Source: Lachnospiraceae bacterium (GTDB taxonomy: Bacteria; Bacillota_A; Clostridia; Lachnospirales; Lachnospiraceae). From it: a DNA stretch of 8,399 bases. Below the pieces are notes generated by a model. It ran no database searches. It saw nothing but the letters and a program-made list of their open reading frames with translations, and was not told where the DNA came from. The position numbers were made by a program, and so were the translations under genes. The stretch is from assembly GCA_017390645.1 (NCBI GenBank), contig JAFPAZ010000145.1, positions 1 to 8,399 on the forward strand, read 5' to 3'. Numbering within the stretch: the stretch's first letter is position 1; every line of letters starts with the position of its first letter. Of this stretch, positions 1 to 8,399 are shown piece by piece.

Positions 1-23
1 GGCAACCTTCGTATTAATTTATG

Positions 24-81
24 AAAAAGATTCATTGAGTCATGAATTCTTAAACATTTAGTCAGGATTCATAACTCAATG
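24..81 (-). terminator. Rho-independent terminator downstream of prs
   Basis: Read on the minus strand, the arm at 81-67 (CATTGAGTTATGAAT) pairs with the arm at 47-33 (ATTCATGACTCAATG). This gives 15 base pairs with one G-U wobble and a 19-nt loop. Four bases later comes a run of five T (minus strand, 28-24). The plus strand has no T run after the hairpin, so the signal fits leftward transcripts, that is, the end of prs. The stem is AT-rich, so termination may be partial. Confidence 0.75.
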
Positions 82-94
82 AGGTTATAGTTTA

Positions 95-111
95 CTGTTA
101 TGCGGTAACAG
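95..111 (-). other. Small hairpin between prs stop and its terminator
   Basis: A perfect 6-bp inverted repeat, CTGTTA/TAACAG, with a 5-nt loop lies between the prs stop codon and the longer terminator hairpin. It is not followed by a T run on either strand. It may help protect the 3' end of the prs transcript, but this is inference; no function is shown by the sequence. Confidence 0.35.
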
Positions 112-118
112 AAAGCGG

Positions 119-157
119 TTAATTCTTTTTTTGGAAATTAATTCTTTTTCTTGGAAA
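119..157. repeat. Tandem duplication of the prs 3' end
   Basis: Two adjacent near-identical units, 119-137 (19 nt) and 138-157 (20 nt), share TTAATTC, a T-rich tract and GGAAA, and differ by one base and one length change inside the tract. The second unit is the last codons and stop of prs on the minus strand. The first is therefore a copy of the gene end, including a non-used stop, placed just after the real stop. Replication slippage across the T-rich tract is the simple explanation. Confidence 0.7.
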
Positions 158-1316
158 TATATTCCTGGATTCTTGCCTGAATCTTTTCCGTAGGATCTAA
201 GATATCGCTGATGGAAGTATCATGATTCAATCGATCAATTAACAATGCGATATACTTACTTAAGTCAGAACTTTCATACCAGTCACGGCTTAATAATTCA
301 GGAGACTGATAAGTTACATTGGTAGTAATGACTTTTTCGATTAAACCTTCTTCCTTCGCTTTATCAAAGGATTCAAGACCATTTGTAAATAAACCAAAAG
401 TAGCAAGGGCAAAGACTCTTCTTGCCTTTCTTGATTTCAATTCTCTGGCAACATCTAACATACTTTCACCGGAAGAAATCATATCATCAATGATGATAAC
501 ATCTTTTCCTTCTACCGAATCGCCTAAGAATTCATGAGCAACGATAGGATTACGTCCGTTTACGATGGTAGTATAATCACGACGTTTGTAGAACATACCA
601 ACATCCACACCAAGAACACTGGCAAAATAAATGGCACGGTTCATGGCACCTTCATCCGGGCTGATTACCATCATATGATTTTTATCAATTTCCAAATCAT
701 CAGTAGAGCGAAGTAATGCTTTGATAAACTGATAAGTAGGCTGAACATTTTCAAATCCCTTTAGTGGAATGGCATTTTGTACACGTGGGTCATGGGCATC
801 AAAGGTGATAATATTTTCCACACCAAGAGAACATAATTCCTGAAGTGCCAATGCACAGTCAAGAGATTCTCTGGTACTTCTCTTATGTTGGCGGCTTTCA
901 TATAAGAAAGGCATGATGACAGTAATCTTTCTTGCCTTACCACCAACGGCAGCAATGACTCTTTTTACATCAGCATAATGATCGTCAGGGGACATTCTGC
1001 ATTTAGAACCACCAAGAGAATATTCCAGGCTGTGGTTTAAGACATCTACTAAGATATAAAGGTCTGTACCACGGACGGATTCCTTGATGATACCTTTGGA
1101 CTCACCTGAACCGAAACGGGGGCAGGCATGACTGATCAAATAATTATCTCTTTCATAACCATTAAATGCGATGGTAGTTTTGTGTTCGTTTTTTCTTTCG
1201 TCACGCCACTTTACAAGATAATTATTTACCTTTTCTCCTAATTCCTTGCAGCTTTCTAAGGCTACGATACCAAGTCTTCCAACCGGTATCGTGTCAAAAT
1301 TGCTTTCTTCTGGCAT
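138..1316 (-). CDS. prs: Ribose-phosphate pyrophosphokinase (PRPP synthetase), long variant
   Basis: This cytoplasmic enzyme transfers pyrophosphate from ATP to ribose 5-phosphate to make PRPP, the precursor of purines, pyrimidines, NAD, histidine and tryptophan. The 392-residue product is longer than the usual roughly 315. Visible family marks: GESKGIIKESVRGTD at about 71-85; SRQHKR at 141-146, matching the ATP-binding RQ segment; FDAHD at 172-176, matching the metal-binding D-x-H; VISPDEGAMNRA at 217-228; KRRD at 244-247, the catalytic flexible-loop lysine/arginine region; and the PRPP-loop VIIIDDMISSGESM at 273-286. The loop begins with the expected DD but reads SSGES where classical enzymes have DTGGT or DTAGT. 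Start: ATG with GGAGG 8 nt upstream. Its own promoter lies 133 nt upstream of the start. No terminator separates it from the dnaC-like gene, so read-through is possible. The long form may be a paralogue of a standard Prs elsewhere in the genome. Confidence 0.9.
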   Translation of the reverse strand: MPEESNFDTIPVGRLGIVALESCKELGEKVNNYLVKWRDERKNEHKTTIAFNGYERDNYLISHACPRFGSGESKGIIKESVRGTDLYILVDVLNHSLEYSLGGSKCRMSPDDHYADVKRVIAAVGGKARKITVIMPFLYESRQHKRSTRESLDCALALQELCSLGVENIITFDAHDPRVQNAIPLKGFENVQPTYQFIKALLRSTDDLEIDKNHMMVISPDEGAMNRAIYFASVLGVDVGMFYKRRDYTTIVNGRNPIVAHEFLGDSVEGKDVIIIDDMISSGESMLDVARELKSRKARRVFALATFGLFTNGLESFDKAKEEGLIEKVITTNVTYQSPELLSRDWYESSDLSKYIALLIDRLNHDTSISDILDPTEKIQARIQEYISKKKN

Positions 1317-1364
1317 TTTATTTTCCTCCGTAAAATTATATTATTTATATTTACGCAATACTAA

Positions 1365-1403
1365 CCGGACGGTTGTCCGGCAGGAAATGCGAAAGGTTGC
1401 ATT
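1365..1403 (-). other. Two small hairpins in the prs 5' leader
   Basis: In the predicted prs leader (about 125 nt), AATGC/GCATT with an 8-nt loop (1403-1386) is followed by a perfect 6-bp GC-rich stem, CCGGAC/GTCCGG, with an AACC tetraloop (1380-1365). Neither is followed by a T run, so they do not look like terminators. The octamer ACCTTTCG occurs twice in the same leader, once in the loop of the first hairpin. No known purine-linked riboswitch consensus was recognised. A role in mRNA stability or regulation of prs is only a possibility. Confidence 0.4.
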
Positions 1404-1448
1404 AGAAACGAAAGGTGTTCTTTCTTGATTGAAAATCCTTTCACATTG

Positions 1449-1477
1449 TTTATAACATTATAACTTACTTTCGTCAA
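1449..1477 (-). promoter_or_regulatory. Sigma-A-type promoter for prs
   Basis: On the minus strand, TTGACG (1477-1472) is followed after exactly 17 bp by TATAAA (1454-1449), with a TG one base before the -10 (extended -10). The match is 5/6 at both boxes. Transcription would start near 1442. The -35 lies only about 20 bp past the stop of the upstream dnaC-like gene, so prs can be expressed independently of dnaD-dnaC. An overlapping TATAAT sits too close to the -35 (9 bp) to pair with it. Confidence 0.75.
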
Positions 1478-1497
1478 GAAGAAACTTTACGTATTGT

Positions 1498-2508
1498 TTA
1501 CGTTTTTTGTTTAATCTGGCGTTCCCTCTTTTGATAGCGGATATCCTGTCCATATAAGAAAAAGACATGAAAGGATTCTAAGATACGGGAAGATATTCGT
1601 TCTCCGTATTGTTCCTTGATATTATGGATGGAATAATTCGTGGTTATGATGGTAGCATGGTTTCTTAACTGGCGCTCATTTAGCAGGGACTGTAACATGG
1701 TAATGGTATAGGAGGTGGTATATTCTGTTCCTAAATCGTCCATGATTAGCAGCTGGGCGTCATAAATATAAGAAGAAAGTCCTTGCAGTTCTCCATCTAG
1801 TGTACCACCCTTCTTTAAGGCGGGAAGAATCTGTTCTAGTAACTTAGGTGCACTAAGATAAAGAACGGTATGCCCCAGATCCAGTAGCTCCTTTGCAATG
1901 CATTTTGCCAGAAAGGTCTTTCCGACTCCGGTAGAACCGGTAAAAATTATGTTATTTGACGAGGTATCAAAATGTTTCACGTAGTCCTTACACTTATGAT
2001 ATACATTTTGAATGTTTTCATAAGCAGAAAAGGGATATTTTTCTTCTTTTTCCTGACTGTAATAAGAAAAATCAAAGGTGTCAAAATTCTCTGTTTCCAA
2101 AAAACGTTGAATATAAGACTGGGCATATAACTTTTTAATGATTTTCTGGTTCAGACAGGAACATTTCTTCTGGTTTTCATCATACCCCGTATCTTTGCAC
2201 AATTTACAGGTAAAAATTGGTTCTAAATAATCCTCAGGGAAGCCGTTGTTTTTTAAAAGTTCTTTTTTTCTTTCCCGAAGGGCTTGGTTTGTTTCTTTTA
2301 GCTCACAGGAAGTCTCAGATGAAACGGATAAAAGCATCTCTTTTATTTTTGAAATGGAACCCGAAGAGAGTTCTAAATCAATCTGTTTTATCTGCGGAAT
2401 TTTTTCGTAAATTTCTTCCTGTCGGGCCTGTTGTTCTTTTTTATGGAGAAGCTGCAGTTCATCATATTCTCTCATGATTTCAAGATACTGACTATTCTTT
2501 TGTGTCAT
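1498..2508 (-). CDS. DnaC/DnaI-like helicase-loader ATPase
   Basis: This AAA+ ATPase of the DnaC/DnaI/IstB type most likely loads the replicative helicase onto DNA during replication initiation or restart. The 336-residue product has a charged, probably helical N-terminus (about 1-90). A putative zinc site follows, with C101-x2-C104 and C116-x-C118, as in many Firmicute loaders. Then come Walker A GSTGVGKT (191-198), Walker B LLIMDDLG (253-260), a sensor-1-like ITTN (288-291) and the arginine-containing GERISSRI (302-309). The start is an ATG overlapping the stop of the upstream dnaD-like gene (ATGA) and preceded by AAGGAGG at 9 nt, so the two are translationally coupled. An IS21-type IstB is unlikely because no transposase gene or element ends are present and the partner is a DnaD-domain gene. 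The label dnaC or dnaI varies between genomes, so no symbol is given. Confidence 0.88.
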   Translation of the reverse strand: MTQKNSQYLEIMREYDELQLLHKKEQQARQEEIYEKIPQIKQIDLELSSGSISKIKEMLLSVSSETSCELKETNQALRERKKELLKNNGFPEDYLEPIFTCKLCKDTGYDENQKKCSCLNQKIIKKLYAQSYIQRFLETENFDTFDFSYYSQEKEEKYPFSAYENIQNVYHKCKDYVKHFDTSSNNIIFTGSTGVGKTFLAKCIAKELLDLGHTVLYLSAPKLLEQILPALKKGGTLDGELQGLSSYIYDAQLLIMDDLGTEYTTSYTITMLQSLLNERQLRNHATIITTNYSIHNIKEQYGERISSRILESFHVFFLYGQDIRYQKRERQIKQKT

Positions 2509-3656
2509 GATTCATTCCCTCCTTGGGATGACGAATGGTTCACCTCTTCTAAAAATAAATCATCGAGGTCACCTGAATTATAGTTACGTTGGGAATAATT
2601 CAAAGCTTTCTGGGTTGCCCCTGTATTTCCTTTGTTTCGTTTCAATACCTGTGTCTTTTTGTATTCCTCATCTAATTTCGCAAGTTCGGAAAGATTATGT
2701 ACCCGGGCCTTGTTCCAGGATTCCAAAATTCCGTTTACATAAGTTACGGTCCCGCTGGTTGGAGAATGAAGAATGGCACGATTACAAGCTTCTTTTATCA
2801 TGGCAGCTTCGAATCCTAATTTGTTTTGCCAATTGTCAATATATTCTGCTTCCACACTGGTGATATTTCGTCCTAAACCTAAAGATTTGGACACCAGGGC
2901 ATAGAGTTCGTTATAGGAGCTGGATTTTAATTTTGCAGCCTTAATGGTTTTAATGCCATCCTTGTGCCAGGCAATGGCTACTGCCTCGATATATCGCATG
3001 CTGGTTTTGTTTTTAGAAACACAATACTCTACCAGATATTCTAATAAGTCCATGGAAAATTCCAAATCATCCAGAATATAAATAAGAGTGTGATAATCGG
3101 TCTGGGTAAAAGGCCTGCCAAAATAGGTTTCTATCATATAAACCAATTGGGAAAAGGAGGTGTCTTTTTCACGTTCTTTGATTTGTACAATAGAGTATTC
3201 CTTTTTCTCCGGTGTAGGAATTTCCTTTGCACAAGCTGTTTTGGTTTCCTGGGAAGCTTTGGTATGAAAGGCATAGGTTTCCTGAGGAGAATCTGTATAT
3301 TCGAAATGCCCTTCCTTAAGGGAATCAAGGTTTCTTGTTGTATCCTCTTTCAAGGAAGCAGTTACCGGAATTATGAAATCGATACCTGTTAATGTACGGT
3401 CCGGAGTGATATGAAGGGAAAGTAGCCCTTCTTTTTCCCAATACTGTAAGGCGCGTTTGATGTCGTTTTCAGTTTCGTTACAAGACTCTGCCAATTCACT
3501 GATAGAAAGAGAGCGGTTTTTCGACAATGCCTGACATAAGCATAGATATACCTTTACATAGGAGCCGTTTGCTTTTGGCATGTAGTCTAAAATGAACGAA
3601 TCTGGAATGAGGGTATAGGTGGGTTGATTTTTGGCGGTAATGGAAATCTGATTCAT
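2505..3656 (-). CDS. DnaD-domain primosomal protein with two DDBH2-type repeats
   Basis: This is a replication initiation/primosome protein of the DnaD/DnaB superfamily of Firmicutes, which helps remodel DNA and recruit the helicase loader. The 383-residue product has an N-terminal winged-helix-like region (about 17-85: helix-rich, with ISELAESCNETENDIKRAL). A polar linker follows (about 100-165). Two successive C-terminal DnaD-type domains come next: about 168-238, ending with the signature YIEAVAIAWHKDGIKT (222-237), and about 249-321, ending with the weaker copy YVNGILESWNKARVHN (306-321). The tail is low-complexity and polar, rich in N, S, G and D. The start ATG has AAGGA 8 nt upstream. 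The stop overlaps the loader gene start, and such pairs are known to act together. The promoter and a DnaA-box array lie directly upstream, which suggests DnaA control. It could equally be named dnaD or dnaB, as the architecture mixes both. Confidence 0.85.
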   Translation of the reverse strand: MNQISITAKNQPTYTLIPDSFILDYMPKANGSYVKVYLCLCQALSKNRSLSISELAESCNETENDIKRALQYWEKEGLLSLHITPDRTLTGIDFIIPVTASLKEDTTRNLDSLKEGHFEYTDSPQETYAFHTKASQETKTACAKEIPTPEKKEYSIVQIKEREKDTSFSQLVYMIETYFGRPFTQTDYHTLIYILDDLEFSMDLLEYLVEYCVSKNKTSMRYIEAVAIAWHKDGIKTIKAAKLKSSSYNELYALVSKSLGLGRNITSVEAEYIDNWQNKLGFEAAMIKEACNRAILHSPTSGTVTYVNGILESWNKARVHNLSELAKLDEEYKKTQVLKRNKGNTGATQKALNYSQRNYNSGDLDDLFLEEVNHSSSQGGNES

Positions 3657-3739
3657 GTTTCACATCCTTTTTATATTGAATGCCCCAAAAGGGCAATGAA
3701 TTCGTAGTTGTTGTTGACTTAGTAACTTGACGCTTTAAT

Positions 3740-3768
3740 AGTATAATATACTATTTTTGAATTGTAAA
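3740..3768 (-). promoter_or_regulatory. Sigma-A-type promoter for dnaD-dnaC
   Basis: On the minus strand, TTTACA (3768-3763, 5/6) is followed by exactly 17 bp and then TATACT (3745-3740, 5/6). Transcription would start near 3733, leaving a leader of about 77 nt. That leader contains a 5-bp TGCCC/GGGCA hairpin (3695-3681) without a T run. The nearest DnaA box (3788-3796) is about 20 bp upstream of the -35, in a position where bound DnaA could touch RNA polymerase. Confidence 0.7.
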
Positions 3769-3787
3769 TTGAAAAATTTCGGGGGAT

Positions 3788-3839
3788 ATATGCACAACAA
3801 ATTTGTGGAAATTGTGGATAATGTGGATAATGTGGTGGA
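3788..3839. promoter_or_regulatory. DnaA-box cluster, left part (upstream of dnaD promoter)
   Basis: Four 9-mers stand head to tail without spacer: TGTGGAAAT (3804-3812), TGTGGATAA (3813-3821), TGTGGATAA (3822-3830) and TGTGGTGGA (3831-3839). The middle two are perfect DnaA boxes (TTATCCACA on the minus strand) and the outer two share the TGTGG core. A fifth, facing the other way, is ATATGCACA (3788-3796), one mismatch from TTATNCACA. A run of five G (3781-3785) adjoins it on the side of the dnaD promoter. The repeat unit equals the DnaA box length, so these read as binding sites, not as random simple repeats. Confidence 0.75.
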
Positions 3840-3929
3840 CATAATATGTTTACAAATCGAAAATGGTAAGAATATTGCGAAAAAACATCACAATCAGAAA
3901 TTTCGAAAAAATTCGTTATGTAAACAAAA
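3840..3929. other. AT-rich core between the two DnaA-box clusters
   Basis: About 90 bp of AT-rich, non-coding sequence separate the left and right DnaA-box clusters. I see no promoter, RNA gene or credible reading frame in it. The short frames crossing it have repeat-derived, low-complexity translations. It could be a spacer, or a duplex-unwinding segment if the region works in an origin-like way; only the base composition supports the latter. Confidence 0.4.
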
Positions 3930-3975
3930 AAATCCACAGATTTTGTTCACATAAATTGTGAATAAACCTGTGGAT
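3926..3975 (-). terminator. Rho-independent terminator of murC, built from DnaA-box-like repeats
   Basis: On the minus strand, ATCCACAG (3975-3968) pairs perfectly with CTGTGGAT (3939-3932). The helix can continue with GTTT/AAAT (one G-U pair) and, after a small internal loop, a perfect inner stem TTCACA/TGTGAA with a 5-nt loop. A run of T (3931-3926) follows directly. This is a strong intrinsic terminator placed about 12 nt after the murC stop. Both arms consist of DnaA-box-type sequence, so the same DNA can serve as a terminator in RNA and a protein binding site in DNA. Confidence 0.82.
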
Positions 3976-3986
3976 AATGTGGATAA
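3930..3986. promoter_or_regulatory. DnaA-box cluster, right part (abuts murC stop)
   Basis: The sites are TGTGGATAA at 3969-3977 and again at 3978-3986 (both perfect and directly adjacent), TGTGAATAA at 3957-3965 (perfect for TTATNCACA on the minus strand), TTGTTCACA at 3943-3951 (one mismatch, plus orientation) and AAATCCACA at 3930-3938 (two mismatches, plus orientation). The last box touches the murC stop codon. Some of the symmetry is explained by the murC terminator stem. The adjacent perfect copy at 3978-3986 lies outside that stem and argues for real DnaA binding. Confidence 0.7.
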
Positions 3987-5366
3987 TTATAAATTTAAAA
4001 GTGATTCTCCAATGTTCACAACATTTCCGGCTCCCATAGTTATCAACAAATCATTTTTTTTGCAGTTTGTTAATAAAAAGTTTTCGATTTCATCAAAAGA
4101 TGGGAAATAATGTACATCTGTTCCATAAGTTGCAATCTTTTCTGCCAGATCCTTGGAACTGATTTCACCGGTATCAACCTCTCTGGCGGCATAAATATCA
4201 GCCAGCACCACGTGGTCTGCCTGACTTAGAACCTTGGCAAAATCATCTAAAAATGCCTTGGTACGGGAATAGGTATGTGGTTGGAAGACGCACCAGAGTT
4301 CCTTGTGTGGATAACGGGAAGCAGCGTTTAAAGTTGCCTGAATTTCGGTTGGGTGGTGAGCGTAGTCATCCACGACGTGAACTCCACATAAATCTCCTTT
4401 ATATTCGAAACGTCGATTGGTTCCAAAAAAAGTAGAAAACCCATCATTGATCTGTTCATTGGTGATGCCCAGTTCTTTCGCAACAAGGATGGCAGAGATG
4501 GCATTATAAATATTATGCTCTCCTGCAACTTTCAGGATAAAATGACCTATAGGTTCTTCTCCTGAAAATAAGTCAAAGGACGAATTTCCCATTTCATCAT
4601 AAGTAATATTGGAAGGATAGTAGTCGTTCTCCTTTAAGGTTCCGTAAGTTTTTATTCTACAGGATAGATTTTTTAAAATAGCATCTTTGGTAGGAATGTC
4701 TCCATTTATGACCAAAAGGCCATTTTCCGGAAGTTTTTTGGCAAACTGGTGAAAAGACTCCGTAATTTCTTCAATTCCACTAAAAAAGTCCAGGTGATCT
4801 TCCTCTACATTTAAGATGACGCTGATTTTAGGGAAAAAGGACAAGAAACTGTTTGTGTATTCGCAGGCTTCCGTTACAAATACTGGCGATGTGCCAACAC
4901 GGATATTACCACCAATGGCTTTTAAAATTCCACCTACAGAAATGGTTGGGTCACTGCCGGCTGCCAGCAGAATGTGTGTCAGCATGGAAGTAGTGGTGGT
5001 TTTACCATGGGTCCCGGAAATCGCAATGGGAGTTTCATAATTGGTCATTAACTGCCCCAGTAATTCGGCCCTGGATAACATAGGAATCTGCTTTTCACAG
5101 GCTGCAACGTATTCTTCATTTTCCTTGGAAATAGCAGCAGTATATACGATAAGGTCGATGGAGTCATTTATATTTTCTTTGCGTTGCCCAATCTGAATGG
5201 CAGCTCCAAGAGATTTTAAATGTTCGGTAATGGATGATGCATTTTGGTCGGAACCACTTACTGTAAATCCGGCATTTAATAAAATTTCTGCCAGACCACT
5301 CATGCTGATTCCTCCAATTCCCATAAAATGGACATGGCAAGGTTGGTTAAATTGAATATTGTACAT
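3987..5366 (-). CDS. murC: UDP-N-acetylmuramate--L-alanine ligase
   Basis: This cytoplasmic Mur ligase uses ATP to add L-alanine to UDP-N-acetylmuramic acid, the first step in building the peptidoglycan stem peptide. The 459-residue length is normal for the family. The N-terminal UDP-binding Rossmann domain carries MGIGGISMSG (15-24). The central ATPase domain has GTHGKTTTT (118-126), TEACEY (165-170) and NVEEDHLDFF (186-195). The C-terminal domain starts near NRRFEYKG (317-324) and contains DDYAHHPTEI (333-342), FQPHTYSRT (361-369) and ITMGAGNV (442-449). All expected motifs are intact. The ATG start is preceded by AGGAGG 5 nt upstream. It is a single-gene transcript with its own promoter and a strong terminator, followed on the same strand by dnaD-dnaC. 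Confidence 0.97.
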   Translation of the reverse strand: MYNIQFNQPCHVHFMGIGGISMSGLAEILLNAGFTVSGSDQNASSITEHLKSLGAAIQIGQRKENINDSIDLIVYTAAISKENEEYVAACEKQIPMLSRAELLGQLMTNYETPIAISGTHGKTTTTSMLTHILLAAGSDPTISVGGILKAIGGNIRVGTSPVFVTEACEYTNSFLSFFPKISVILNVEEDHLDFFSGIEEITESFHQFAKKLPENGLLVINGDIPTKDAILKNLSCRIKTYGTLKENDYYPSNITYDEMGNSSFDLFSGEEPIGHFILKVAGEHNIYNAISAILVAKELGITNEQINDGFSTFFGTNRRFEYKGDLCGVHVVDDYAHHPTEIQATLNAASRYPHKELWCVFQPHTYSRTKAFLDDFAKVLSQADHVVLADIYAAREVDTGEISSKDLAEKIATYGTDVHYFPSFDEIENFLLTNCKKNDLLITMGAGNVVNIGESLLNL

Positions 5367-5424
5367 TAGATCCTCCTATTTGATATGACGTATGTGTGTC
5401 GTCTTATCCGATTCTTTTCGTCTG

Positions 5425-5440
5425 AGTCTATTATAGGACT
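5425..5440. promoter_or_regulatory. Dyad-symmetric site over the murC -10 box
   Basis: The 16-bp stretch AGTCTATTATAGGACT is nearly palindromic: AGTC and GACT frame a CTAT-T-ATAG core, with one extra base on one side. It contains the murC -10 (TATAAT on the minus strand). A repressor binding here could block murC, but no cognate regulator can be named and the symmetry could be chance in AT-rich promoter DNA. Confidence 0.3.
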
Positions 5441-5458
5441 TTTTTTCAGGTTCGTCTA
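5430..5458 (-). promoter_or_regulatory. Sigma-A-type promoter for murC
   Basis: On the minus strand, TAGACG (5458-5453, 4/6) is followed by 17 bp and a perfect TATAAT (5435-5430). Transcription would begin near 5423, giving a leader of about 57 nt. The -35 lies 24 bp from the -35 of the divergent glgC promoter. Confidence 0.65.
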
Positions 5459-5482
5459 CTATGAAAATGCAAGTAATTTCCC

Positions 5483-5511
5483 TTGAGGCTTAGAAAAAAA
5501 TATGATAAAAT
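5483..5511 (+). promoter_or_regulatory. Sigma-A-type promoter for glgC-glgD
   Basis: TTGAGG (5483-5488, 4/6) is followed by 17 bp and TAAAAT (5506-5511, 5/6), with a TG one base before the -10 (extended -10). Transcription would start near 5518, leaving a leader of about 118 nt before the chosen TTG start. That leader holds the structured element at 5530-5586. Confidence 0.68.
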
Positions 5512-5529
5512 ATAAAATAATTGTAACGT

Positions 5530-5586
5530 AGCAATTTGTGATGCTAACGGGTGGGAAAATTTTACTTCTACACCCGCATCATTGCT
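5530..5586 (+). promoter_or_regulatory. Long bulged hairpin in the glgCD 5' leader (unassigned RNA element)
   Basis: Three stretches on the left, AGCAAT (5530-5535), GATGC (5540-5544) and GGGTG (5549-5553), pair without interruption with CACCC, GCATC and ATTGCT (5571-5586). This leaves two 4-nt bulges, both on the 5' side. The helix can grow inward by GGAA/TTCT (5554-5557 with 5566-5569, one G-U, one bulged A), giving about 20 pairs around an 8-nt loop. No T run follows on the plus strand, so it is not a simple terminator. It starts about 12 nt into the predicted transcript. It may be a cis-regulatory RNA, a stability hairpin, or a copy of a dispersed palindromic repeat; I recognise no known riboswitch consensus. 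Confidence 0.6.
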
Positions 5587-5620
5587 CAAAAAAGAATAAG
5601 ATGAAGATTTACTCTGAAAA

Positions 5621-5627
5621 AGAGAGG
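5621..5627 (+). promoter_or_regulatory. glgC ribosome binding site that sets the TTG start
   Basis: AGAGAGG is the only good Shine-Dalgarno sequence here. It overlaps a possible GTG start at 5627, which therefore cannot use it, and lies 8 nt before the TTG at 5636, the ideal distance. This decides the start of glgC in favour of TTG. Confidence 0.7.
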
Positions 5628-5635
5628 TGTATGTT

Positions 5636-6910
5636 TTGATTAAGAAAGAAATGATTGCCATGTTGCTTGCCGGTGGGCAGGGGAGTCGTCTGGGAGTACT
5701 TACTTCTAAACTGGCAAAACCGGCGGTTGCTTTTGGCGGAAGGTATAAAATCATTGATTTCCCACTTAGTAACTGTATTAATTCCGGTATAGATACGGTG
5801 GGGGTTTTGACCCAGTATCGTCCCCTTCGTTTAAATCAGCATATTGGAATCGGTATTCCGTGGGATCTGGATAGAAATATCGGTGGTGTTACGGTGTTGC
5901 CGCCTTATGAAAAGAGCAGTAACAGCCAGTGGTATACCGGTACGGCTAATGCCATATATCAGAATCTGGAATATATGGAGTATTATCATCCGGATTATGT
6001 ATTGATCTTATCAGCGGACCATATATATAAGATGGATTATGCAGTAATGCTGGATTATCATAAGGCATGTAATGCAGATGTAACCATAGCTACCATTCAG
6101 GTTCCTTATGAAGATGCTCATCGTTATGGAGTCGTCATTGCAGATTCTAACGGAAGAATTAAGGAATTTGAAGAAAAACCGGAGGAGCCCAAGTCGAATC
6201 AGGCGTCTATGGGTATTTATATTTTTTCCTGGGATGTGCTAAAAAATGCGTTGCGTTCGTTATCCCAGGAGGTAGCCTGTGATTTTGGAAAACATATTAT
6301 TCCATATTGCCATAAGTGTGGGAACCGGATTTATTCCTATAATTATAGGGGATATTGGAAAGATGTGGGAACCCTTGCTTCTTACTGGCAGTCTAATATG
6401 GAATTAATTAATCTGGTCCCTGAATTTAATCTGTATGAAGAATTCTGGAGAATTTATACCAAAAATGACCGCACCACACCACAGTTTGTTTCGGGTACTT
6501 CAAATATAGGGGGAAGTATTATCGGGGAAGGTACGGAAGTCTATGGAAGTGTAGATAATTCCGTCATTGGCTCAGGGGTGTATATTGCAGAAGGGGCTGT
6601 AATTCGAGATAGCATTATTATGAGTGATTGTAAAATTGGGAAAAATGTAAATATTTACAAGGGAATTATTGCGGAAAACACTACCATAGAAGATGATGCC
6701 CAGGTGGGTTGTTTTGAAGAAGTCCCGAATAAGGTAGCACCACATATTTATTCGGATGGATTATCTGTGATTGGAGAGGGAAGTTACATTCCTTCCGGTG
6801 TCAGAATTGGTAAGAATACTGCCATTTCCGGGATTACGGTTTTTTCAGATTATATAGACGGAGTATTGCCTAGTGGGGAGAATTTAATTAAAGGAAGTGA
6901 TGGAATATGA
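5636..6910 (+). CDS. glgC: Glucose-1-phosphate adenylyltransferase, catalytic subunit
   Basis: GlgC makes ADP-glucose from ATP and glucose 1-phosphate, the committed step of bacterial glycogen synthesis. With the TTG start the product is 424 residues and begins [20 protein letters not shown], as typical clostridial GlgC does. A GTG at 5627 would add three residues but overlaps the ribosome binding site. Motifs: nucleotide-binding [11 protein letters not shown] (10-20), [19 protein letters not shown] (28-46), [12 protein letters not shown] (99-110), the catalytic-Asp segment [11 protein letters not shown] (125-135), FEEKP for sugar phosphate binding (178-182) and KDVGT (242-246). The C-terminal part (from about 287) has left-handed beta-helix hexapeptide repeats used for subunit contacts and allostery. 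All catalytic motifs are intact. The stop overlaps the glgD start (ATGA), so the two subunits are coupled. Other glycogen genes (glgA, glgB, glgP) are not in this window. Confidence 0.96.
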
Positions 6911-8034
6911 GAGCAATCGGAATTATCCTGGCAGGGGGAAACAGCAGTAAAATGAGAGAGCTGTCTGCGAAGAGAGCCATTGCGGCAATGCCGGTAGTAG
7001 GAAGTTACCGGAGCATTGATTTTGCACTTAGTAATATGTCAAATTCCAAAATTCAGAATGTGGCTGTTTTTACCCAATATAATTCCAGATCCTTGAATGA
7101 ACACCTTAGTTCATCAAAATGGTGGGATTTCGGACGTAAGCAAGGTGGACTTTATGTGTTTAATCCTACCATTACTCCGAAAAACAGTTACTGGTATAAG
7201 GGAACTGCAGATGCCCTTTATCAGAATATGGGATTTTTAAGAGACAGTCATGAACCTTACGTGGTGATAGCCTCAGGAGATGGCATTTATAAATTAGATT
7301 ATAATAAAGTTCTGGAAGAACATATTAAAAGCAATGCAGATATTACCGTTGTGGTAAAAGAAATCAATCCTGTGGAGGATGACCCTACCAGATACGGTGT
7401 AGTGGTAAAGATGGATGAGAAAAACCGTATTCTTGATTTTGAAGAAAAACCATTGGTGGCAACTACGAATCTGGTATCCATCGGGGTTTATGTCATTCGT
7501 AGAAGGCAGCTGTTGGAGCTTTTGGAAACCTGTGCAGCTGAGGAGAGAATGGATTTTGTAAAGGATATCATTGTACGGTATAAAAGCATTAAAAATGTTC
7601 ATGCATATAAGATGGATTCTTATTGGAGAAATATTAGTACGGTGGAATCTTACTATCGTGCCAATATGGATTTTTTAAATTCGGATATCAGGGATTACTT
7701 TTTTAAACAATATCCTGATGTTTATTCAAAGGTAGATGATTTACCGCCAGCGAAATATAATTATGGATGTGAGGTTAAAAACAGCCTGATTTCCAGTGGA
7801 TGTATCATTAATGGACGGGTGGAGAATTCGGTCATCTTTAAAAAGGTGTTTGTAGGAAATAACTGTGTGATAAAAAATTCCATTGTATTAAATGATGTGC
7901 ATATTGGTGATAACTGTTACATAGAGAACTGCATCATTGAAAGCAGGGATACCTTACGGGCCAATACGACTCATATAGGAGAAGATGGGAATATCAAAGT
8001 TGTGGTGGAAAAGAATCTTAGATATACCGTATAA
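6907..8034 (+). CDS. glgD: Glucose-1-phosphate adenylyltransferase-like regulatory subunit
   Basis: GlgD is the Firmicute-specific partner of GlgC. It is generally poor as an enzyme itself but forms a hetero-oligomer with GlgC and raises its activity. The 375-residue product is shorter than GlgC. It keeps the fold: LAGGNSSKM (8-16), [12 protein letters not shown] (36-47), [12 protein letters not shown] (96-107), [10 protein letters not shown] (123-132), DFEEKP (177-182), SYWRNI (238-243) and C-terminal hexapeptide repeats (about 285-345). Changes from GlgC fit the regulatory role. The glycine-rich loop reads NSSKM where GlgC has QGSRL, replacing the key arginine by lysine, and the [10 protein letters not shown] segment is degenerate ([13 protein letters not shown]). 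The Asp corresponding to the GlgC catalytic residue appears to be retained. AAGGAAG lies 9 nt before the start, and the four-base overlap with glgC implies coupled translation. It presumably arose by duplication of glgC. Confidence 0.93.
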
Positions 8035-8037
8035 CCA

Positions 8038-8081
8038 AAAATAACGCAGCGAAAGCGTGCCTGCGCTGTTTTGATTCTTTT
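8038..8081 (+). terminator. Intrinsic terminator of glgC-glgD
   Basis: Bases 8038-8049 pair with 8061-8072. CGCAG/CTGCG forms the GC-rich inner helix; one A-C mismatch and a U-G wobble follow, then an outer A-tract/T-tract helix, around an 11-nt loop. T-rich sequence continues to 8081. This is the typical shape of an A-tract/U-tract terminator, placed directly after the glgD stop. Its 3' T tract overlaps the -35 of the predicted spoVG promoter. Confidence 0.68.
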
Positions 8082-8098
8082 ACATAAAATATTATAGT
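8071..8098 (+). promoter_or_regulatory. Putative sigma-A-type promoter for spoVG
   Basis: TTGATT (8071-8076, 4/6) is followed by 16 bp and TATAGT (8093-8098, 5/6). Transcription would start near 8105, about 38 nt before the spoVG ATG. A sigma-H promoter, known for spoVG in Bacillus, was looked for; a GAAT occurs at 8115-8118 but no matching AGGA -35 precedes it. Confidence 0.5.
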
Positions 8099-8142
8099 TT
8101 CGCAATCACCTATAGAATTATGATTTGGAGGAGGGAGATTTT

Positions 8143-8399
8143 ATGGAGATTACAGAAGTAAGAGTTCGAAAAGTAAACAAAGAGGGTAGAATGAAGGCAG
8201 TGGTATCTATTACCTTAGATCAGGTTTTTGTGGTACATGACATTAAGGTGATTGAAGGAGAAAGAGGCTTGTTTATTGCCATGCCTAGCAGAAAAAACAG
8301 TGAAGGGGAACACATTGATGTGGCACACCCTATCACTCAGGAAGCCAGAGAGTATATACAGGAAGAGATTCTTAAGGTATATCAGAGTCTGGAAGGCTA
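8143..8399 (+). CDS. spoVG: Septation/sporulation regulator SpoVG (3' end beyond window)
   Basis: SpoVG is a small conserved nucleic-acid-binding regulator, known from Bacillus and Staphylococcus to affect sporulation septum formation, capsule and virulence genes. The visible 85 codons begin [20 protein letters not shown] and contain [10 protein letters not shown] (about 29-38), [10 protein letters not shown] (about 41-50) and [17 protein letters not shown] (about 57-73). These match the core SpoVG signature, including the nucleic-acid-binding MPSRK region. SpoVG proteins are usually about 85-100 residues, so only a short tail is missing past the window end. A very strong ribosome binding site, GGAGGAGGGAG (8127-8137), precedes the ATG by 5 nt. 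In Bacillus spoVG lies beside glmU and prs; here prs is also nearby but about 7 kb away and on the other strand. Confidence 0.95.

Follow-up and report, generated by a model that had tools for sequence, protein, structure and literature searches.

The initiator DnaA is also known as a regulator of genes. According to the available part of PMC4447404, it activates sda in Bacillus subtilis and is an apparent repressor of several genes and operons. Like the locus described here, the sda promoter has several DnaA boxes upstream of it, and boxes 1 and 2 are required for full activation. However, its target is a sporulation checkpoint gene whereas the candidate target here is the helicase-loader operon, and in the same part of that paper we found neither a terminator-embedded doublet nor a family-wide helical quantisation, both of which are found here. 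The top 20 B. subtilis regions bound by DnaA in vitro, as given in its Table 1, do not include dnaD, dnaB-dnaI, or murC, whereas here the array lies at murC-dnaD. The DBCs of B. subtilis (Okumura et al. 2012, via PMC5295017 and PMC13220808) are also DnaA-box clusters outside oriC, but in the accessible portions of these sources their function is described through the level of free DnaA. PMC5295017 also states, in its accessible portion, that no such cluster of B. subtilis has been found to contribute significantly to the control of initiation. In E. coli, close pairs of boxes serve as the unit that DnaA binds at its regulatory targets (Stringer et al. 2024, PMC11317965, available in part), which is similar to what is seen here, except that the E. 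coli double boxes are spaced 2-3 bp apart whereas here the units abut with a period of 9 bp. The asnC roadblock (Schaefer and Messer 1988, via the same part of PMC11317965) likewise involves a DnaA box where a transcription unit ends, but there the DnaA-box complex itself halts the polymerase, while here the box lies within a complete hairpin-plus-T-run terminator. The clostridial oriC is at dnaA according to the excerpt available of PMC7561715, and DnaA is not mentioned in the available text of PMC10310618. No description of the murC-dnaD element was found in one open-access library, which covers few of the subscription papers.

The window, that is, the whole stretch of 8,399 nucleotides that was analysed, comes from a Lachnospiraceae bacterium (GCA_017390645.1, contig JAFPAZ010000145.1, positions 1-8,399, forward strand). 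Its minus strand carries prs, a DnaC/DnaI-like AAA+ gene, dnaD, and murC, and its plus strand carries glgC, glgD, and the start of spoVG; prs, glgC, and glgD were assigned by Pfam domains. The upstream neighbour, murC (3987..5366, minus strand), codes for UDP-N-acetylmuramate--L-alanine ligase (NCBIfam TIGR01082, 485.8 bits). From its stop it is 330 bp to the start of dnaD (2505..3656, minus strand), which codes for a DnaD/DnaB_2 replication-initiation protein (Pfam PF07261, 133 bits; NCBIfam TIGR01446). The AAA+ gene (1498..2508, minus strand; Pfam IstB_IS21/AAA) overlaps the dnaD stop. Its protein scores 343 bits with NCBIfam PRK06835, "ATP-binding protein", which is over the cut-off, but the DnaC and DnaI models match it under their cut-offs; we have taken it as the helicase loader.

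All seven box matches that the initial annotation had named in the murC-dnaD gap were found again, each at its stated position. The four TTATCCACA boxes form two end-to-end doublets in one orientation, that of murC and dnaD; the doublets are 156 bp apart start to start and the arrays are 138 bp apart. In the murC-side doublet, box 1 (3978..3986, minus strand) is directly 3' of the murC stop codon, and the ATCCACA of box 2 (3969..3977, minus strand) is the outer 5' arm of a terminator stem. A third murC-side box, TTATTCACA (3957..3965, minus strand), lies 12 bp past box 2 and its TTCACA is the 5' arm of the upper stem, for which TTGTTCACA on the plus strand (3943..3951, one mismatch) supplies the complementary arm. 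The promoter-side array has, by sequence match, box A (3822..3830) and box B (3813..3821), followed by a weaker third tandem unit, ATTTCCACA (3804..3812), all on the minus strand. The one-mismatch ATATGCACA (3788..3796, plus strand) had been counted as a member of the array; it lies outside the tandem array that is common to relatives and is not retained as a member here. Another perfect TTATCCACA lies within murC (4306-4314, minus strand), and it is probably incidental because a perfect TTATNCACA is found inside murC in 20/80 relatives.

The window as a whole is mildly enriched in boxes, with 18 matches of at most one mismatch against 11.85 expected, and 10 of 200 shuffles reach 18. The 330-bp gap has five perfect TTATNCACA boxes; dinucleotide shuffles of it gave a mean of 0.05 and a maximum of 2, and none of 5000 reached five or more. 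The gap has the make-up of a DnaA-box cluster outside oriC, since more consensus boxes are packed into its few hundred bp than chance would give. In the gaps of 79 relatives there are 161 perfect boxes in 21.4 kb (7.5/kb), where 100 shuffles gave a mean of 1.45 and a maximum of 7. As controls, 62 glgC-murC gaps (17.7 kb) have two perfect boxes, 59 spoVG-glgD gaps and 77 dnaC-prs gaps of relatives have none, and coding sequence of relatives has 0.01-0.21 per kb. A systematic family sample gave 185 perfect boxes in 80 gaps versus one in 21.7 kb of dnaD coding sequence, and in Konateibacter massiliensis 26 matches were found in 400 kb of sampled stretches without the array (0.065 per kb). It is because of the box consensus and its rarity that we infer DnaA to be the ligand.

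The specificity of the doublet for this place was also examined. In 12 chosen genomes there are 28 copies of the exact 18-mer; 19 of these copies are in the murC-dnaD gap, spread over 9 of the 12 genomes, and the gap of the other three has none. The nearest relative of the window, genome G143 (MurC 93% identical), has the exact doublet twice in 3.2 Mb, both times in this gap. A strict two-doublet pattern matched 38 of 397 genomes in the family of G001, which is K. massiliensis and the genome of locus L020, and the pattern read backward matched none. The matching places were fetched from 30 of those 38 genomes and all 30 are in the murC-dnaD gap. Across the class, 1 of 391 genomes matched, and this one is G143.

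The initial annotation had suggested aligning the murC-dnaD gap across Lachnospiraceae, and on doing so the boxes prove to be kept in relatives with the same gene order. The first set was made of the 80 best MurC matches, most of them titled Lachnospiraceae or its genera, and hence is biased. In 79 of the 80 loci dnaD and the loader follow murC; the exception, L057, was dropped since its contig ends before dnaD. At least one perfect box is present in 76 of the 79 gaps and at least two in 35. The second, less biased set consisted of 80 genomes from the 145 of G143's family. It left out every third rank, G067, and the last ranks, which are largely incomplete; also left out were nine genomes that all have the strict array, so that the sample is slightly against the boxes. 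In all 80, dnaD follows murC. A perfect box is present in 67 of the gaps, 50 of which have two or more. It is lacking in the remaining 13, among them four very short gaps of 25-63 bp, and thus some lineages do without the boxes. Boxless gaps of only about 25-63 bp were seen at L177, L227, L238, L244, and L079; such lineages may transcribe dnaD from further upstream. Where two arrays are present (67 distinct gaps), the first starts at gap position 0-4 in 65, the exceptions being L072 and L080.

A sample of 118 genomes from the class gave a DnaD match in 67, and in the best 30 of these 67 loci the 450 bp upstream of the estimated dnaD start were scanned. At least two perfect boxes were found in four (G143, G191, G218, and G272, all of which are also in the family sample), one box in one, and none in 25. 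We treated the other 26 clostridial loci among these best 30 as more remote on account of much lower DnaD scores (at most 127 bits versus 167-548), and 25 of these 26 have no perfect box in the 450 bp scanned. Judged by this distribution, the composite element looks like a Lachnospiraceae feature, with losses. As to the surroundings, among the 80 nearest loci, some of them on cut contigs, 62 have glgC no more than 1.2 kb from murC, and in 59 the same limit holds for spoVG and glgD. The murC-dnaD pair of Konateibacter is transcribed opposite to the local leading strand, and in H. hathewayi it seems to run along the leading strand, as judged by dnaA orientation alone.

The gap does not hold one array, as had been supposed, because its murC-side half doubles as the predicted terminator of murC. 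The boxes at 3957-3965 and 3943-3951 are mainly hairpin arms, and the latter is probably not an independent DnaA box. On the murC strand, the intrinsic-terminator hairpin (3932..3975, minus strand; T-run 3931-3925) reads AUCCACAGGUUU, then UUCACA, loop, and UGUGAA, then AAAUCUGUGGAU, followed by a U run. The boxes at 3969-3977 and 3957-3965 and the plus-strand match at 3943-3951 supply its arms. It folds with -20.6 kcal/mol (z -5.15), and none of 200 shuffles folded as well. A simple terminator scan of the window reported no terminator here, probably because the stem is interrupted. Conservation was surveyed in 111 gaps, some repeated, namely 80 including that of the window, 30 strict-pattern loci, and one of G143. 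TCCACA...TGTGGA is present near the murC stop in 74 of the 111; the hairpin was not detected in the other 37, nearly all of the Mediterraneibacter type, and was missed in one of 31 loci chosen by the strict box pattern (L110). In 61 distinct gaps, inner pairs 1-3 are kept in 98/93/90% against shuffle means of 54/48/49%, with compensatory types T-A, A-T, G-C, and C-G, and in 59 of the 61 at least five of the eight bases after TGTGGA are T. The 5' arm of the hairpin is exactly TTATCCACA in 43/61 and the preceding unit is TTATCCACA in 50/61, although detection needed an exact TCCACA and TGTGGA and the invariance of those letters is partly by construction. Most gaps keep a DnaA box at the outer 5' arm even though the inner stem drifts by compensatory changes. 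A stable hairpin, a T-run, and conserved pairing, the marks of an intrinsic terminator, are all found at 3932..3975.

The predicted dnaD promoter (3740..3768, minus strand) has a -35 of TTTACA (3768-3763), a 17-bp spacer, and a -10 of TATACT (3745-3740) without TGn. It is the top-scoring of six promoter-like sites (3.1 expected) in a scan of the window, and aligned promoters are also predicted in relatives. The array had been placed 20 bp above this promoter, and this holds for the weak 3788 box only; between the perfect doublet on the promoter side and the -35 there are 44 bp. Promoters were called with an ad hoc score that rewards TG, by which the extended -10 (TGn) in 71 of 73 predicted promoters of the second set is an inflated figure. 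The -35 in that set has five or six matches in 3/73 and four in 32/73. It is not absent in relatives, with a mean of 2.8 matches when unselected against 1.6 in random hexamers. In the window it matches at 5/6, and this core promoter is not weak.

The distance between the array and the predicted -10 falls into steps of about one helical turn. In the first set, the phasing of the array end to the best -10 gave R 0.84 at 10.25 bp (69 loci), while second-best -10 sites gave 0.05. From the array start, R was again 0.84 (65/69 loci), with distances of 67, 71-72, 76-77, 85-89, 95-97, and 105-108 bp, and the control distance from -10 to the dnaD start gave 0.10 (n=38). This set was without L051, L110, and L133 (promoter score <16) and L080 (an outlier at 122 bp left out by hand); L080 was left out of the array-start test but included in the array-end test. 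An independent-pair test on it had only 8 pairs (P about 0.003). In the second set, the promoter was picked first, blind to the boxes, and 59/80 loci were usable, the other 21 having no promoter of score 16 or no tandem array nearby. The start-to--10 distances here were 64-66, 73-78, 84-90, 95-99, 106, 117-119, and 137 bp, and R was 0.74 at 10.5 bp (59 loci). A DnaD tree gave 26 independent differing pairs, of which 18 differ by more than 4 bp. For these 18, the mean cosine was 0.63 at 10.5 bp, 0.67 at 11 bp, and 0.56 at 10.25 bp, with P about 5e-5 under a null of differences spread uniformly over 5-32 bp. Phasing of the array end could be mimicked if a 9-bp unit were lost. The retest from the array start was made for this reason, and in the second set the same 18 pairs give a mean cosine of -0.08 at 9 bp, so that gain or loss of units does not account for the phasing. 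As controls, 5'UTR length gave -0.19 (P 0.86) and alternative -10 sites gave 0.18 (P 0.057), which is weak and not wholly flat. Of 39 scored loci that lack the two tandem arrays, 31 have their last perfect box at 84-86 bp from the -10; these are mostly one clade with close relatives counted repeatedly and so are not independent. The window is in the same class, since its array starts, with box A, 85 bp upstream of the -10; it ends, with the third unit, 58 bp upstream. The boxes are therefore in register with the predicted -10, as at a DnaA-regulated promoter. A quantised distance of this kind (about 65, 76, 86, 97, 106, and 118 bp) would be the mark of a regulator that meets RNA polymerase on one face of the helix.

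Taken from sequence comparison, the murC-dnaD gap is a predicted composite regulatory element typical of Lachnospiraceae. A tandem doublet follows murC, and its second box doubles as the base of the putative terminator stem. After 138 bp, there is a second tandem run of 2-3 boxes in the same orientation, and at helix-turn-spaced distances from it is the predicted promoter of dnaD and the loader, which in most relatives would have an extended -10 and a non-consensus -35. We propose that DnaA, which probably oligomerises cooperatively over the tandem boxes (in the window from about -97 to -71, taking -12 as the start of the -10), contacts RNA polymerase from a fixed DNA face and so would regulate dnaD-dnaC. 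It is slightly more likely to act as a class I-like activator, in which case the supply of DnaD and the loader would follow active DnaA. The terminator would insulate the dnaD promoter from murC, and the murC-side doublet may aid DnaA binding or looping. A class I activated promoter has the activator site upstream of the -35, in phase with the helix, and a weak core promoter. The position and the phasing here agree with this but the core is mixed, with an extended -10 in relatives and TTTACA without TGn in the window. That DnaA controls dnaD-dnaC directly, in whichever direction, we consider likely; this part of the initial annotation is strengthened by boxes that are conserved where the gene order is kept and by a promoter-side array helically phased to the predicted promoter. 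As to the choice it had left between activation and repression, the extended -10 in relatives (71/73) leans to activation, but the promoter of the window has no TGn and a -35 of 5/6. Within direct control, the balance tips just perceptibly towards activation, and our estimate for it, at first a little higher, was lowered because the window's own promoter lacks an extended -10. The argument for activation from a weak core fails for the window because there is no TGn and the -35 is 5/6.

If DnaA on the promoter-side array, perhaps in a loop with the doublet near murC, instead acts as a brake on loader supply by feedback, the same helical phasing would suit it, since phasing also fits contact repression or looping. 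The 138-bp spacing of the two arrays in the window would lend itself to such a loop, the core promoter there seems strong enough to work without an activator, and repression is the commoner effect of DnaA listed in B. subtilis (PMC4447404, as far as available). The boxes, however, are upstream of the core promoter and not over it, relatives as a rule have an extended -10 with a non-consensus -35, and the phasing between the arrays is not convincing. Array start-to-start distances are discrete (85-87, 98, 121, 132-134, 141-147, 154-158, 165-167, and 177-180 bp). Looping between the arrays may occur but is not indicated by this spacing, as independent pairs are similarly coherent at periods of 9-12 bp and about 10.5 bp is not singled out. 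Repression is a case within direct control, and weighed against all readings together we regard it as possible but on the unlikely side. A site for titration or DnaA conversion (DBC/datA-like) would chiefly bind up DnaA or alter its nucleotide state and so time initiation, with the proximity of dnaD incidental. The boxes are tandem and consensus, their distance to dnaA is about 278 kb in Konateibacter and about 275 kb in H. hathewayi, and joint deletion of the six B. subtilis clusters outside oriC leads to early initiation (PMC5295017 and PMC13220808, accessible portions). Yet helical spacing relative to a promoter, as is seen here, would be superfluous for a sink, and the Schaedlerella locus is about 1.03 Mb from dnaA. 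As the whole explanation titration is improbable; as an added role it may hold.

The murC-side repeats could also be a murC terminator and nothing else, its TCCACA/TGTGGA arms resembling DnaA boxes by chance. A strong hairpin with a T-run and compensatory inner pairs are what such a terminator would have, but the promoter-side array and box 1 are then left unexplained, and the outer arm remains a DnaA box in most gaps while the inner stem varies freely with compensation; we think this very unlikely. A more elaborate reading, in which DnaA bound to the doublet alters murC termination or read-through into dnaD and loops to the promoter-side array, setting both read-through and dnaD firing, is speculative and we hold it to be doubtful; if true, the gap would be a DnaA-gated junction between cell-wall synthesis and replication. 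Two groups of DnaA boxes around an AT-rich spacer resemble a bipartite oriC, which raises the question whether the gap is a (second) replication origin. In K. massiliensis, however, the skew and gene strand flip at 2.68-2.692 Mb, i.e. at dnaA (2.689 Mb), and 20 sampled stretches of 20 kb show no flip at murC-dnaD (2.411 Mb). Full-length dnaA was found in 11 of 12 genomes, each of these 11 loci with 4-9 perfect boxes, of which 2-6 are within 400 bp. By a simple pattern, no DnaA-trio-like run (at least three TAG/TAA) was found on either strand of the window's gap. With no GC-skew switch at murC-dnaD in this one relative, a second origin was rejected and is extremely improbable. An RNA switch that binds DnaA, of the kind proposed for the his leader (PMC10989985, seen in part), is unsupported by anything here. 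Direct control of dnaD-dnaC by DnaA stays the preferred reading, and the element is real and conserved and is probably functional and DnaA-responsive.

Some other sequences deserve mention. The spacer between the two arrays has an imperfect inverted repeat (window 3847-3861 / 3912-3926), which in relatives is TTTACATAA...TTATGTAAA and is conserved in part. In the spacer of some gaps (L036, L039, L041, L042, L043, L050, and L058) there is a TTCGACA (reverse complement TGTCGAA), which we take to resemble a Spo0A box and which could tie dnaD to sporulation control; it was not seen in the murC-dnaD gap of the window. Nine of the 28 exact doublet copies in the 12 genomes are outside the murC-dnaD gap. 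The non-murC doublet loci are upstream of hpf-secA (L081-L084, L086, and L140), beside trmB (L085 and L090), and next to a mecA-like gene, with a gene whose start resembles a signal peptide on the other side (L087, L088, and L094); the doublets of L090, L094, and L140 have one mismatch each. By NCBIfam, the hpf assignment is confirmed at L083 and L140 and that of trmB at L085, whereas L087's mecA-like gene scores under the curated cut-offs; the remaining neighbour names, secA included, were assigned by reading. Five more near-copies of the doublet are at L089, L091, L092, L093, and L095. The array with the TTATCCACATTATCCACA doublet upstream of hpf, the ribosome hibernation factor, is a second conserved one, present in several genomes including G143. 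It could mark another promoter under DnaA control, through which replication would be linked to ribosome hibernation.

What is surprising here is the helicase-loader operon as the probable target, the helically quantised spacing across the family, and the half of the array that is shared with a terminator. A phased array on the operon of DnaA's own partners would hard-wire the level of the initiator to the supply of the loader, and it would do so in a large family of gut bacteria.
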